A stretch of DNA of 64,000 nucleotides. Origin: Pseudomonadota bacterium. Its GTDB lineage: Bacteria; Pseudomonadota; Gammaproteobacteria; Burkholderiales; Ferrovaceae. Where the stretch lies: NCBI GenBank assembly GCA_021805445.1, contig JAJZFH010000063.1, forward strand, positions 1 through 64,000, read 5' to 3'. Positions within the stretch are counted from its first letter, which is position 1, and each line of letters begins with the position of its first letter. The notes below the pieces were generated by a model. It ran no database searches. It was not told the DNA's origin and saw only the letters and a program-made list of their open reading frames with translations. Positions 26,898 through 32,715 of this stretch are shown one piece after another. The position numbers and the translations under genes were made by a program.

Positions 26898-26902
26898 TTA
26901 GT

Positions 26903-26946
26903 CCCAAGTAGTAATGTCCGCTTTCTCCCAAATAGAAATGTCCGCT
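26903..26946. repeat. Tandem 20-bp repeat, IS-end-like
   Basis: CCCAAGTAGTAATGTCCGCT (26903-26922) and CCCAAATAGAAATGTCCGCT (26927-26946) match at 18 of 20 positions with a period of 24. Multiple short repeats of the GCGGACATTTCTA type are found at the ends of IS21- and IS481-like elements, so this is probably the end of a lost element; it runs directly into the IS3 fragment. Confidence 0.5.
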
Positions 26947-27345
26947 GGTGGTTGAACCAGTGAACTCACTGGAGCGTGGCGATTTCCACAGACTCACGGG
27001 TTTTCCAGGGGCCCCTGGGGTGAATCAGTTCCGTTTTGTAGAGGCCGTTGATGGTTTCTGCCAGGGCGTTATCGTAACTATCCCCCTTGCCTCCCACCGA
27101 GGGTTCGATCCCCGCTTCCGTCAAACGATCGGTGTATCGAATCGAAAGATATGGGGATCCCCGCTCCGAGTGGTGGATCAGTTCCTGCCCGGCCGGTTGT
27201 CGGGCATACCGGGCTTGTTCCAGCGCATCCAGAACGAAATCCGTCTGCATGGACTGGCTGACTCTTCTCTCCAGCCCACGAGGCGCCGGGCAAATACATC
27301 GATGACGAAAGCCACATACACACCCCCTGCCAGGTCGATACATAT
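26942..27345 (-). pseudogene. IS3-family transposase OrfB fragment (inactive)
   Basis: The minus strand encodes the catalytic part of an IS3-type OrfB: VYVAFVIDVFARRLVGWR (in a neighbouring frame), then SMQTDFVLDALEQARYARQPAGQ, HHSERGSPYLSIRYTDRL and GDSYDNALAETINGLYK. At least one frameshift near 27250, another near 27310, a TGA replacing the usual Trp codon before VHWFNHQR, and Glu in place of the usual second catalytic Asp (HHSERG) show it is dead. Both ends of the element are missing. Confidence 0.85.
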
Positions 27346-27661
27346 GGGAATGGATGATCTTGACGATGCTCCTCCACCCTACGCACGGCTCACTCTTGTA
27401 CTTCAGGGAGAAAATATTTTGCGAGGTGTCGCTTCACGCCATCCCTGCGAACTGCTCTTGGTTTTGTTCATGGCTCTATTCTCTCAGAATTTGTCCTCCA
27501 GAAAATACAGGGCGATTCAGTGTGTGAATACTGAAAAAGCAACCCGATTTTGGTCGAAAACGACAATTAAAAGTGGTTGATCATGGAGAGGCATGAACCG
27601 CGGCGGGATATGCTTTATCATGCTCCATTGATCGTTAGGGGTCTCAAAGGGGGGGTACGTC
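27346..27661. other. Intergenic stretch before the methyltransferase
   Basis: No supported gene. Only short frames shadowing neighbours are seen. A GTCG-AAAA-CGAC small inverted repeat and AT-richer DNA lie about 110 nt before the methyltransferase start, so its promoter is probably here, but no convincing -35/-10 pair could be chosen. Confidence 0.4.
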
Positions 27662-29044
27662 GTGCGGCACCAGTTCAAATTCTTGGATATGTTCGCTGGT
27701 ATCGGCGGTTTTCACCATGCGTTGGCAGAACTGGGCGGGGTCTGTGTCTTGGCTTGTGAACTGGATTCCGAAGCACGCAATGTTTACCAGAAAACCTTTG
27801 AAGAAGCGGAAAATCCCGGCATTATAGTGGAAAATATCCGGGACTTGACCCGTGCAGACCCAGCGAATGAAATGTCGTTGCTGAGCAGGGAAGAAGTCCG
27901 GAGGCGCGTCCCCGACCATGACCTGTTGTGTGCGGGCTTCCCCTGCCAACCTTTCTCGAAATCCGGTGGGCAGCAAGGAGTTCGCGATAAAACGCGTGGG
28001 ACTCTGTTTCATGATTTGTTGCAGATCATCGATGCGAAGCAACCCACCTATATCTTTCTGGAAAATGTGCGCAATCTGGCTGGACCACGGCATGTCGATA
28101 CGTGGCACACCATCGTGTCCTCTTTGCAAGAGTTGGGTTACCAACTGTCTGCTGAGCCCCTGATCTTTAGTCCCCATTTGCTGTCTCCTGAAATGGGTGG
28201 AGCGCCTCAGGTGAGAGAACGTGTATTTATTCTGGGCGTTAGAAACGACAAATCAAACGGGCAACTGAAAAACATTCTTGATTTTCATCGTGACCTCAAT
28301 GAGAAAGTTTTCTGGAATCCCGATCAATGGAAGATCTTTCATTACCTTGATGCCGATCATTTGATTTCTGATTTACCTGACTATGAAATCAGCGAAAATG
28401 AGTCCATGTACCTGGAAGCCTGGGATTATTTCGTGGCCAATTTATCGCAGGATTTGTTGCCTGGTTTCCCCATATGGGCGTTCGCTTTTCGGAATAGCCC
28501 TGCGCTTGAGGATGGGATGCCGGCATGGGAGTCGGGGTTTTTGATCAAGAACTCCCATTTTTATCTGGAGAATCGTGGTTTTATCGATTCGTGGACGAAG
28601 ATGAAATGGGGGAAATCCCGGTTGACGGTGGCTGAGTTCCCCGTTTCACGGCAAAAGTTTGAATGGCAAGCCCGCAAACATCATCCTGGTAAAACTGGTA
28701 GGACCCTGAAAGATCTGGTGATTCAGTTCCGGCCTAGCGGCATCAGAGTGAAGCCCCCCACCTATCTGCCAGCATTGGTGGCGATTACTCAAACATCTGT
28801 GGTGGGGCCCTTGTTGAGAAAGGGGTCTGATCGCTATCGGAAACTCACTCCCATCGAAGCCGCGCGACTTCAGGGAGTTCCCGATGCCGTCTATTCCCGT
28901 GGTACGGTGACAGCCAGAGCCGCTTACAAACAATTGGGCAATGCGGTCAATGTGGGGTTGGTACGAAAGGTGGCGGAAATATTGATGGGGTGTTCCACTG
29001 CAAACGAATCAAGGCAGTCTGAAATGAGTTTCGTGGCACGATGA
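27662..29044 (+). CDS. DNA (cytosine-5)-methyltransferase
   Basis: Transfers a methyl group from SAM to C5 of cytosine in a specific DNA site. All landmarks are present in the 460 residues: motif I LDMFAGIGGF (8-17), motif IV AGFPCQPFSKSGG with catalytic Cys95, motif VI FLENVRN, motif VIII QVRERVFI, and C-terminal motifs IX-X (TPIEAARLQGVPD, AYKQLGNAVNV). The variable region of about 200 residues between VIII and IX, which sets the target site, is not recognisable to me. GTG start after a G-rich ribosome site. Base use is AT-richer than neighbours, and it lies beside an IS scar, so it was probably acquired. Convergent with a gene that may be its restriction partner. Confidence 0.93.
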   Translation: MRHQFKFLDMFAGIGGFHHALAELGGVCVLACELDSEARNVYQKTFEEAENPGIIVENIRDLTRADPANEMSLLSREEVRRRVPDHDLLCAGFPCQPFSKSGGQQGVRDKTRGTLFHDLLQIIDAKQPTYIFLENVRNLAGPRHVDTWHTIVSSLQELGYQLSAEPLIFSPHLLSPEMGGAPQVRERVFILGVRNDKSNGQLKNILDFHRDLNEKVFWNPDQWKIFHYLDADHLISDLPDYEISENESMYLEAWDYFVANLSQDLLPGFPIWAFAFRNSPALEDGMPAWESGFLIKNSHFYLENRGFIDSWTKMKWGKSRLTVAEFPVSRQKFEWQARKHHPGKTGRTLKDLVIQFRPSGIRVKPPTYLPALVAITQTSVVGPLLRKGSDRYRKLTPIEAARLQGVPDAVYSRGTVTARAAYKQLGNAVNVGLVRKVAEILMGCSTANESRQSEMSFVAR

Positions 29045-29052
29045 GCATAACG

Positions 29053-29646
29053 TTAGCAGGTTGGCAAAAATTGTTCCAGAAAGCGAATCTGTAACCCACG
29101 CTTTTCTTGGCTGTAATTCAGACCTTGGACCTGACGTCTGGCGCCGATGTCTTCAGGTGACTGGACATTGGCGAAAAAATTCTTGGGGATGTTTTTGGCT
29201 TTTATCTGTCCTGTGTCGCTCGTGTTGTCCAGAAATTTGATCAACACTTTTTTTTCCACGACCGCGCAACCGTTCAAGTCGACAGCCAATAGAAAGTCGG
29301 CATAATCTTTGGGAAGTTGTCTGTTGTCGTTACGTCCCATGGTGTTGACGAGGGTTAGTGTGGTGGTTTCTTTTTGTTGTCCGTTTGTTGAGTATAGTAG
29401 GGTTTTTTGGAACTTCATCTCACAGTAGATGTTGAGTTCTTTTATGAAAAAGTCCCTTCCCGTTTGGTTGACATGCCGGATTTCCCGATGACTGAAAACT
29501 TCGATGGCCAGTTCCAATAGATCACTTTTGTCGAATCGGTTTTTCAGGTCATTCAATGTGTCCCCAATGGTATCGACGGCACTGTAAAAAGCAACCCAGT
29601 CGACATGGTTTCTGAAATAATCGGCGACTTGTTGCAGGGTGGGCAT
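29053..29646 (-). CDS. Unrecognised protein, candidate restriction endonuclease partner
   Basis: I do not recognise the family. The 197-residue product from the ATG at 29646 (GAGGAA ribosome site) is mixed alpha/beta with no signal or membrane segment. DFLLAVDLNGCAVVEKKVLIKF (about residues 117-138) looks like a PD-(D/E)xK nuclease core, with Asp117 or Asp123 followed by Glu131-x-Lys133 on a hydrophobic strand; CEMKF (Glu76-x-Lys78) is an alternative. It lies 8 nt from, and tail-to-tail with, a cytosine-5 methyltransferase, a usual arrangement in type II R-M systems. An open frame extends to 29946, but the extra part lacks support. Function is inference from context and motif. Confidence 0.6.
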   Translation of the reverse strand: MPTLQQVADYFRNHVDWVAFYSAVDTIGDTLNDLKNRFDKSDLLELAIEVFSHREIRHVNQTGRDFFIKELNIYCEMKFQKTLLYSTNGQQKETTTLTLVNTMGRNDNRQLPKDYADFLLAVDLNGCAVVEKKVLIKFLDNTSDTGQIKAKNIPKNFFANVQSPEDIGARRQVQGLNYSQEKRGLQIRFLEQFLPTC

Positions 29647-29994
29647 GAGGTTCCTCGAGTTATGATCAAAAGTTGTGTATGCGGCAGGAAGTGGGTGGCG
29701 TATTCTCGATGGTTCTTCCGGAATCATTACCTCATACAAGGACGAATACGCCGTGGGACAAGATAACGTAATTGGGCTGAACAATCCAGGGAATCCTGAT
29801 GGAGTGGAACCCCCTGTTTTTTTTGATTTTGTATGGTTTTCATACTTCCTTCGCAGTGCCCGGGAACATCCGTCGGCTGACGCAGTTTCCGCAAAGAGAT
29901 CTGCCGTATGTGGCTGCGGCGGCTTCATCGTCGCAGCCAGCATCATTGTTTGTCCCGGAAGCGCCTTCGCTCAACCGGTTCGGAGTGTCGGGTT
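29647..29994. other. Gene-poor stretch between the R-like gene and clpB
   Basis: No supported gene. The minus frame of the R-like gene stays open here but has low-complexity, non-homologous sequence. TGGCTGCG (about 29910) and CGCAGCCA (about 29931) form an 8-bp inverted repeat downstream of the clpB stop, a possible clpB terminator without a T-run. The DNA may be the left scar of the inserted R-M pair. Confidence 0.35.
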
Positions 29995-32574
29995 TCAGGA
30001 GGTTTTGAACAGGAACTGCCCTCCTTTCCAGTCGGCCCGGATCGTGCTGCCTGGAAGGAAAACTCCTTCCAGGATGCGGCGGGCCAGGGGATTCTCGAAC
30101 TCGCTTTGAATCGCCCGTTTGAGGGGGCGTGCGCCATAAACCGGGTCGAAACCCACGGCGGCCAGTTGATCGAGGGCGGTATCGCTCACCTCCAGGGCGA
30201 GTTCCATCTTTTCCAGGCGGCGGGTCAATTGGGCCATCTGGATGCGGGCGATGGCGCGGACCTGAACTTCTCCCAAGGCATGGAAGACCACGATTTCGTC
30301 GATGCGATTGACGAATTCGGGACGAAAATGGGTCTTGACCTCGGCCATGACCGCCAATTTGATGACGGCCTGATCGTCTCCGGCCATTTGCTGGATCATC
30401 TGCGATCCCAGATTGGAGGTCATGACGACGACCGTATTGCGGAAATCCACCGTCCGCCCTTGTCCGTCGGTCATGCGTCCATCGTCCAGTACCTGGAGCA
30501 GGACATTGAAGACGTCGGGATGCGCTTTTTCCACCTCGTCCAGCAGGATGACGGCATAAGGTTTGCGCCGCACGGCTTCCGTCAAATAGCCGCCTTCTTC
30601 AAAGCCGACGTAGCCGGGTGGAGCGCCCAGGAGGCGGGCAACGGAATGTTTTTCCATATATTCCGACATGTCGATGCGAATCAGATGGTCTTCCGAGTCG
30701 AACAGGAAGTTGGCCAGGGTTTTACAAAGTTCGGTTTTCCCCACCCCCGTGGGTCCCAGGAACAGGAAGGAACCGTAGGGTCGGTTGGGATCGGACAGGC
30801 CGGAACGGGAGCGCCGGATGGCATCGGAAACCAGACGCACGGCTTCGTCCTGCCCAACCACGCGCTGGTGCAGGTAATCTTCCATGCGCAGCAACTTTTC
30901 CCGTTCCCCTTGCATCATTTTGGCGACGGGGATGCCCGTGGCGCGGGACACTACTTCGGCAATTTCTTCGGCCCCCACCTGGGTGCGCAACAATCTGAGG
31001 GGCTGAGACTTGCCGCTGCTCTCGGTCGTCTGGCGCAACTGGGCTTCCAGTTGAGGGATCCGCCCGTACTTGAGTTCTGAGGCTTTTTGCAGATCGCCTT
31101 GACGCTGGGCTGTTTCCATTTCCGCACGCGCCCGGTCCAGGGCTTCCTTGACGTGTTGGGAACCCTGGACCTGAGCTTTTTCGGCTTTCCAGACTTCTTC
31201 CAGATCCGCGTATTCCTGTTCCAGTTTATGAATTTCTTCTTCCAGCAAAGCCAGACGTTTCTGGGACGCCTCGTCCGTCTCGCGCCGAACCGCCTCACGT
31301 TCTATCTTGAGCTGGATCAGGCGCCGGAATAATTTATCCATGGATTCGGGCTTGGAATCGATTTCCATTTTGAGTCGGGCGGCCGCTTCATCGATCAGGT
31401 CGATGGCCTTGTCAGGCAGGAAGCGGTCGGTAATGTAGCGCTGGGACAGTTCGGCCGCCGCCACGATGGCCGGGTCCGTGATGTCCACCCCATGATGGAG
31501 TTCGTACTTTTCCTGCAGACCGCGCAGAATGGCGATGGTGTCTTCCACCGTGGGTTCGCCGACCAGCACCTTCTGGAAACGTCGTTCGAGGGCAGCGTCC
31601 TTTTCGACATATTTGCGGTATTCATCCAGAGTCGTGGCCCCCACGCAGTGCAACTCCCCGCGCGCCAAGGCGGGCTTGAGCATGTTGCCCGCATCCAGGG
31701 CCCCCTCGGCCTTGCCTGCGCCCACCATGGTATGAAGTTCGTCGATGAATACGATGGTCTGTCCTTCGTCCTGGGCCAACTCCTTGAGTACGGCCTTGAG
31801 GCGTTCTTCGAATTCCCCGCGATATTTGGCCCCCGCCAACAAGGCCGCCATGTCCAGGGCCAGTACGCGTTTGTTCCGCAGGCTGTCGGGGACTTCATCG
31901 TTGACGATACGCTGGGCCAGTCCTTCGACGATGGCGGTCTTGCCGACGCCGGGCTCACCGATCAGCACCGGGTTGTTCTTGCTCCGGCGTTGCAGGATCT
32001 GAATGACCCGCCGGATTTCGTCGTCTCGTCCGATGACGGGATCCAGTTTGCCGAGCCGGGCTCGTTCGGTCAGATCCAGGGTGTATTTTTTGAGGGACTC
32101 ACGTGCCCCCTCGCTTTCCTGACTGGTCACCCCGGCACCGCCGCGCAGGGCTTCGATCGCCTTTTCGAGGCGCGGGCGTTGAGCCCCGTTCTGGCGGAAC
32201 AGGCGTCCCACTTCGCCTTTATCCTCACATAGGGCGAGCAGAAAAAGTTCGGAAGCGATGAAAGGGTCTTGACGCTTCTGGGCTTCCTTCTCCGTCAGAT
32301 TGAGCAGGGTATTGAGATCGCGGGAGACACTGACCTCTCCGTTCGGGACAGAGAGATGGGCAACCCGCTCCAGAAGGGGAGGCAAGCCTTGTTTCAGGGG
32401 TTGTACCTGAATATCGGCGCGGGCCAGCAAGGACGCCGTGGTCCCGTCCTGCTGATCCAGCAGGGCCAGCAGCAGATGTACCGGTTCGATGTTGGCATGG
32501 TCATGACGCAGAGCCAAACTCTGCGCATCGGCAAAAGCTTCCTGAAATTTGGTGGTCAGTTTGTCAAATCGCAT
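29995..32574 (-). CDS. clpB: ATP-dependent chaperone ClpB
   Basis: Hexameric disaggregase that, with DnaK, pulls proteins out of aggregates after heat shock. The 859 residues are full length: N-domain repeats (1-145), first AAA+ domain with [13 protein letters not shown], a coiled-coil middle domain (about 410-520, rich in Glu/Lys/Arg, specific for ClpB), second AAA+ domain with [13 protein letters not shown] and [16 protein letters not shown] sigma32-type promoter lies upstream. Confidence 0.97.
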
Positions 32575-32608
32575 GGTTCACTCCTGAATCATTGATGGGC
32601 CTGAAGCG

Positions 32609-32638
32609 TACATGGGGCGCATAAGGAAGAATATCAAG
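32609..32638 (-). promoter_or_regulatory. Sigma32 (heat-shock) promoter of clpB
   Basis: On the minus strand CTTGATA (32632-32638) and CCCCATGTA (32609-32617) are 14 nt apart, close to the sigma32 consensus CTTGAAA-N13-15-CCCCATNTA. It sits about 35 nt before the clpB start. Confidence 0.75.
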
Positions 32639-32715
32639 GCGAGCAGGGGGAGACCTTCAGGAAAGAACTCCGTCAGAAGTTGCTGGTATCCGCTTTGTAG
32701 CGATGCCCTCCGCCC

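Follow-up and report, generated by a model that had tools for sequence, protein, structure and literature searches.

Gene content of the clpB locus

The window, which is the whole 64-kb stretch of DNA that was analysed, belongs to a genome of 1.97 Mb (G000; G numbers denote genomes and L numbers denote sequence loci or stretches). The features identified at the locus are shown in Table 1. A C5 cytosine DNA methyltransferase (MTase) gene and a gene encoding 197 residues (p197) lie tail-to-tail within an insertion beside clpB, and the arrangement and spacing reported in the initial annotation were confirmed.

Table 1. Coordinates of the features of the insertion in the window.
Feature	Position	Strand	Characteristics
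Whole insertion with the MTase-p197 pair	26899..29988		3.1 kb; missing at this place in the four genus mates compared
IS transposase remnant (rve integrase core)	26966..27343	-	Left part of the insertion
C5 cytosine DNA methyltransferase (MTase)	27662..29044	+	460 aa; GTG start; PF00145; probable target AGCT
Gap at the tail-to-tail junction of MTase and p197	29045..29052		8 nt
p197	29053..29646	-	197 aa; open reading frame and coding score; candidate restriction endonuclease
Leader upstream of p197	29647..29988		Foreign; unaligned to the four genus mates compared; its open frame scores as non-coding

In each of the four genus mates compared, the clpB gene directly adjoins a P-type ATPase gene and the two are divergent. 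The foreign block separates both genes in the window, and the clpB segment beside the insertion is inverted relative to the same four genomes. The match of the IS remnant to the rve integrase core (26966-27340, E 1.1e-6, 29.3 bits) is below the Pfam cut-off of 32.6 and bears out the IS scar that had been noted earlier. The leader presumably holds the promoter of p197. The pair had also been described as richer in AT than its surroundings, and this agrees with the GC contents of the MTase (0.504) and p197 (0.449) against those of clpB (0.591) and the P-type ATPase gene (0.556). The GC3 values of p197 (0.540) and the MTase (0.547) agree with each other and differ from those of clpB (0.700) and the ATPase gene (0.698). 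No other nuclease was recognised among the four further frames scanned in the insertion, which are the transposase remnant and three frames without a match. The region 26899-32700 of the window also lacks a PEP-CTERM-like gene (labelled by eye) that is found at this place in G713 (L106, 6988-7719).

The methyltransferase and its closest relatives

The MTase matches PF00145 with 219 bits (cut-off 22, E 1.4e-64). The motifs GFPCQPFSKSG, FLENVRNL, PQVRERVFILG, and AYKQLGNAVNVG are all intact, so the claim of a complete C5 methyltransferase holds. The PCQ, ENV, QVRER, and GNAV motifs align with those of the relatives, which places the protein among the DNA C5-methyltransferases. A fragment of another C5 methyltransferase, partly masked by N, is located elsewhere in the same genome (L184, G000:C40, 1309-1692).

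The closest MTases found are those of three genus mates (G688, G713, and G769) and of an actinomycete metagenome-assembled genome (MAG; L007). They are 61-64% identical to the MTase of the window, including the variable region between motifs VIII and IX. The MTases of the three genus mates are all located beside purB, and G545, another member of the genus, shows no more than an MTase fragment, which lies at a contig end. The tree of 14 MTases groups the MTase of the window with these four closest MTases, which are all linked to a small protein named NucB, with support of 100/99; the branching order inside this group is not resolved by the tree. The profile of the MTase group matched one of 321 genomes of the class, which was G000 itself, and four of 396 genomes in the phylum of the actinomycete genome G1088. 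MTases of the N4/N6 type were found in six of the seven genus genomes searched.

Characteristics of p197

In its own frame p197 scores as coding, with a codon score of +0.10, compared with -0.40 in either shifted frame and -0.03 in antisense. A longer reading of 297 aa is disfavoured, because the open frame upstream of the p197 ATG scores -0.26. The 197-aa start is therefore preferred, and a GAGG ribosome site was seen by eye at this start.

The 197-residue protein could not be placed in the initial annotation, and it remained without a relative in the profile, sequence, and pattern searches made here. No relative was found in NCBIfam, PADLOC, or PDB sequences. Pfam gave only acyl carrier protein phosphodiesterase (ACP_PD, PF04336), which was rejected since the match is below the cut-off of 27 bits for both the 197-aa reading (13.9 bits) and the 297-aa reading (19.7 bits). 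Four weak matches were obtained from PHROGs (E 0.042-0.36), one of which is labelled endonuclease (0.076). The sole match among 398 genomes of the phylum and 32 genomes of the family, which are small samples where absence is no proof, was G000 itself. Phages and plasmids gave no match, even with E values of up to 10 allowed, and the best match besides p197 itself in the six-frame open reading frames of 93 records had an E of 0.5. Exact peptide patterns, which detect close relatives only, did not find p197 in the genome and viral contigs scanned.

A PD-(D/E)xK nuclease core had been proposed for p197. The residues are present at the positions claimed (Asp117, Asp123, Glu131, and Lys133); the core itself is not backed by any significant profile or sequence match, and its motif is common by chance. 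Of 227 comparable proteins, 66 contain the loose motif D-x(6-24)-[DE]xK, and 26 contain the stricter form in which two hydrophobic residues precede [DE]xK; p197 has both forms. The form with a D-x5-D pair occurs in two of the 227 proteins, and p197 itself fails this pattern as it was written. Two further [DE]xK triplets are found in p197 at 33 and 76, and D65 with E76-x-K78 would, by eye, be as plausible a core as D117 with E131-x-K133. The single-sequence fold model of p197 has a pLDDT of 40, which is too low for use, and speaks neither for nor against a PD-(D/E)xK fold. The motif in p197 is thus suggestive at most.

Partners of the related methyltransferases

The MTase is tail-to-tail with NucB in G688, G713, G769, and the actinomycete MAG. 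NucB has 225 aa in G688, 236 aa in G713, about 236 aa in G769, and 216 aa in the actinomycete MAG. Both genes are 15 nt apart in G688 and overlap by approximately 20 nt in G713, G769, and L007. A methanogen phage also carries NucB near its MTase; the two genes there share a strand and are separated by 484 nt. The motif FD...WDxKxH is kept in all five NucB members and looks like a nuclease site, so that NucB may be regarded as a putative nuclease by motif and place. The model of NucB has a pLDDT of 56. Foldseek with this model found no solved structure at E<=0.001 and no nuclease among the 50 of 117 matches listed (E up to 10). VIA-align found no Z>=5 among 921 chains and no nuclease among the 50 of 112 matches listed (Z>=2).

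The possibility that p197 is a decayed or diverged NucB was rejected. NucB had no match in G000, in a search that was made without a positive control; in L179, a local tblastn did detect NucB. The FD...WDxKxH motif is missing from p197, which separates it from the NucB members. The resemblance between HVDWVAFY of p197 and QMEWIGFY of NucB is weak, and the hhalign profile score between both proteins is equalled by 20 of 227 random proteins, so there is no detectable homology between them.

Other related MTases have other neighbours. The MTase of a Nanopelagicales MAG (L008), which is approximately 50% identical to that of the window, adjoins a restriction endonuclease of the known SacI family (RE_SacI, PF09566, E 8.2e-11). 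This nuclease has 378 aa, is encoded on the same strand as its MTase, and shows no similarity to p197. In L233 (4127-6953), the MTase is flanked by a tail-to-tail HNH_2 protein (E 1.2e-13) and a Vsr gene. The MTase of L009 is adjoined by Vsr and Z1, and that of L235 by an ATPase and Z1. The plasmids L011 and L012 have, by annotation, genes of an ATP-binding protein and Z1 near the MTase. No neighbour resembling NucB or p197 was found in the eight of 80 viral MTase loci inspected (L013, L015, L017, L018, L019, L022, L029, and L034); an HNH-like gene was seen by eye upstream of the MTase in L013. The MTases of L006 and L234 are located at contig ends and were excluded from the partner counts.

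The partner thus varies widely among the related MTases, and p197 occupies the exchangeable partner slot of this MTase group. The context supports the restriction-modification (RM) pair that had been proposed, given that a small protein fills the same slot beside the closest MTases and recognised nucleases stand beside some others; the PD-(D/E)xK core proposed for p197 is not supported, and p197 shows no significant nuclease signature. Judged by its context, p197 is probably the nuclease partner of the MTase.

Depletion of AGCT and the probable recognition site

The window contains 16 AGCT sites against 101.8 expected. AGCT is the lowest of the 256 tetramers in 125 kb of G000, with 40 observed against 219.9 expected (0.18). 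It is the most depleted tetramer in all five genus members that hold the MTase, at 0.17-0.23 of expectation. The observed and expected counts of the other four are 39 and 216.3 in G713 (0.18), 33 and 197.8 in G688 (0.17), 18 and 80.9 in G769 (0.22), and 34 and 147.0 in G545 (0.23), where the MTase is seen as a fragment only. The counts are 136 against 195.4 in G768 (0.70) and 108 against 159.0 in G770 (0.68); these two genomes (86% and 73% complete, respectively) yielded no MTase of this group. Six other family members show ratios of 0.79-1.05. The stretches of G633, G661, G763, and G767 were too short and were omitted from all AGCT counts.

The holders of the MTase (G000, G713, G688, and G769) were compared with the genomes without it (G768 and G770) over 257 palindromic sites, with G545 (fragment) and G605 (exception) omitted. 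AGCT separates both sets best, with 0.18 against 0.69 (ratio 0.26, next 0.65). By eye, the common flanks of AGCT also have a lower frequency per kb in G000 than in G768, with AAGCTT showing the smallest difference, which points to a four-base site. The target of the MTase is thus probably AGCT, as suggested by site depletion. SacI cuts GAGCTC, which contains AGCT, and by analogy this may add a weak hint toward AGCT for the MTase group.

Several observations bear on how the depletion is to be read. G605 is as poor in AGCT as the MTase holders (60 against 249.7 expected, 0.24, in the stretches L108 and L162-L166), and the search there yielded only a C5 MTase fragment of 70 positions and no member of this MTase group; the depletion may therefore predate the MTase-p197 pair or have another cause. 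Four N4/N6 MTase matches were also seen in the G605 stretches. Because the depleted genomes are closely related, they represent nearly one event. AGCT is not depleted in the actinomycete genomes G1088 (MTase and NucB, 0.87) and G1089 (MTase and SacI, 0.89), which would fit a recent arrival of the genes there but does not help the AGCT reading. The phage stretches L010 (0.92) and L009 (1.23) are not depleted either. The MTase-NucB segments contain few AGCT sites (one in L003, two in L004, one in L179, none in L007, and three in L010), so the absence of AGCT from the insertion of the window is not special.

Two further genomes show site counts of their own. The stretch L007 1-9362, which carries the MTase, NucB, and an integrase-like gene, lacks both AGCT and GATC, for which 26.0 and 48.2 sites were expected; the absence of AGCT is local, as the ratio in its genome is 0.87. 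G547, which has a related MTase, shows an AGCT ratio of 0.37, and other tetramers are far more depleted there (ACGT 2/144, CCGG 1/69, GCGC 12/181, and GGCC 11/154 in L141-L143); six C5-MTase matches were found in this genome.

The purB scar

The purB locus of G000 has the same flanks as in the genus mates but lacks the MTase-NucB pair. A scar of this pair was identified at L197 (G000:C23, 6785-6889). It retains 27 bp of the 3' junction of NucB and the MTase, which are 96% identical to L179 and 93% identical to L004. The 27 bp were not matched in G605, G768, and G770, nor in G688 (L003). The scar indicates that an ancestor of G000 very probably had the purB system. The MTase of the window is only 63-64% identical to those of the genus mates, although the clpB genes of the window and G713 share 99% identity, and the present pair must therefore be a separate arrival. 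The window pair is also located at another chromosomal place than the MTase-NucB pairs of the genus. The MTase-p197 pair appears to have replaced the older, related MTase-NucB pair, in an order of gain and loss that we infer.

According to the review PMC3874152, cells survive the loss of an RM system if a second system protects the same sites, and the recognition sequence thus defines an incompatibility group of RM systems. This principle offers a ready mechanism for a takeover by a system of the same specificity.

Proposed function and alternative explanations

The MTase-p197 pair is rather likely to be a type II RM system for AGCT, with p197 as its nuclease, that replaced the resident MTase-NucB pair at purB; methylation, cleavage, and the site are what we infer from the genes and the genomes. 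The MTase would protect the host chromosome by methylating a cytosine, the most likely target being the AluI site AGCT, and p197 from the convergent gene would cut unmethylated AGCT of incoming DNA. The pair would have arrived in the lineage as an insertion beside clpB with the IS remnant inside. The newcomer would probably have replaced the resident pair of the same specificity, and the old purB pair could have been deleted without cell death because the newcomer would protect the same sites. The more specific joint claim, that p197 belongs to a restriction endonuclease family unrecognised by the libraries searched and that an incoming AGCT system with a non-homologous nuclease displaced a resident AGCT system and left a scar, is put forward tentatively, as a serious candidate that we would not yet call probable.

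Three alternatives were weighed against this RM system. The MTase could be a solitary guard methylase for AGCT, for example after the loss at purB, and p197 an unrelated cargo gene. The lack of a detected homologue and of a significant nuclease signature in p197 would suit a cargo gene, and a solitary methylase that attenuates the killing when an RM system of its own specificity is lost has been described (PMC3874152). However, four relatives have NucB in the same tail-to-tail slot and a fifth has an HNH protein there, and the GC3 of p197 matches that of the MTase and not those of clpB and the ATPase gene, which makes a solitary methylase fairly unlikely. An accessory role of p197 (control protein, inhibitor, or repair factor) after the loss of the true nuclease is suggested by the two related MTases that are adjoined by Vsr repair endonucleases and by the short length and unplaced state of p197. 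We regard such a role as very unlikely, since none of the Vsr and regulator models in Pfam, NCBIfam, and PADLOC matches p197 and the frames scanned in the insertion offer no other candidate nuclease.

The pair could also be an RM system for a site other than AGCT, with the depletion due to another or an older enzyme. The depletion of G605 without a detected MTase of this group, the close kinship of the depleted genomes, the undepleted G1088 and G1089, and the presence of other MTases in the genus (N4/N6 type in six of the seven genomes searched) all speak for a different site. Of the 257 sites, AGCT nevertheless differs by far the most when the four MTase holders are set against the two genomes without it, and another site is judged unlikely. 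The RM system for AGCT remains our preferred reading of the locus.

Restriction enzymes are very diverse and many have been found only via their neighbouring genes. RM systems with unrecognisable nucleases are common. The MTase group described here stands beside a SacI-family nuclease, an HNH nuclease, the putative nuclease NucB, ATPase and Z1 genes, and p197, and it is a good place to test the swapping of partners under related methylases. If the AGCT site is true, the genus would hold a before-and-after record of the displacement of an RM system by another of the same specificity, and such a takeover is permitted under the incompatibility view of RM systems.

Comparison with known systems

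The pair resembles AluI and other type II RM systems that include a C5 MTase: it has a C5 MTase, an adjacent small gene, and a probable AGCT target. It differs from them in that p197 matches no recognised nuclease. The specificity in the window is read from site depletion only, and M.AluI and R.AluI are likened to the pair by site and not by sequence. The case of the solitary methylase Dcm versus EcoRII is similar to the present one in that protection of the same specificity permits the loss of an RM system (PMC3874152). In contrast to Dcm, the replacement here appears to be a whole candidate RM pair and not a solitary methylase. No gene-level comparison of the SacI, Eco53kI, and AluI systems was found in the literature. 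M.AluI is described as a C5 MTase for AGCT in PMC11879396, and an AGCT restriction system in Mycoplasma arthritidis is named by a title in the reference list of PMC6753208.
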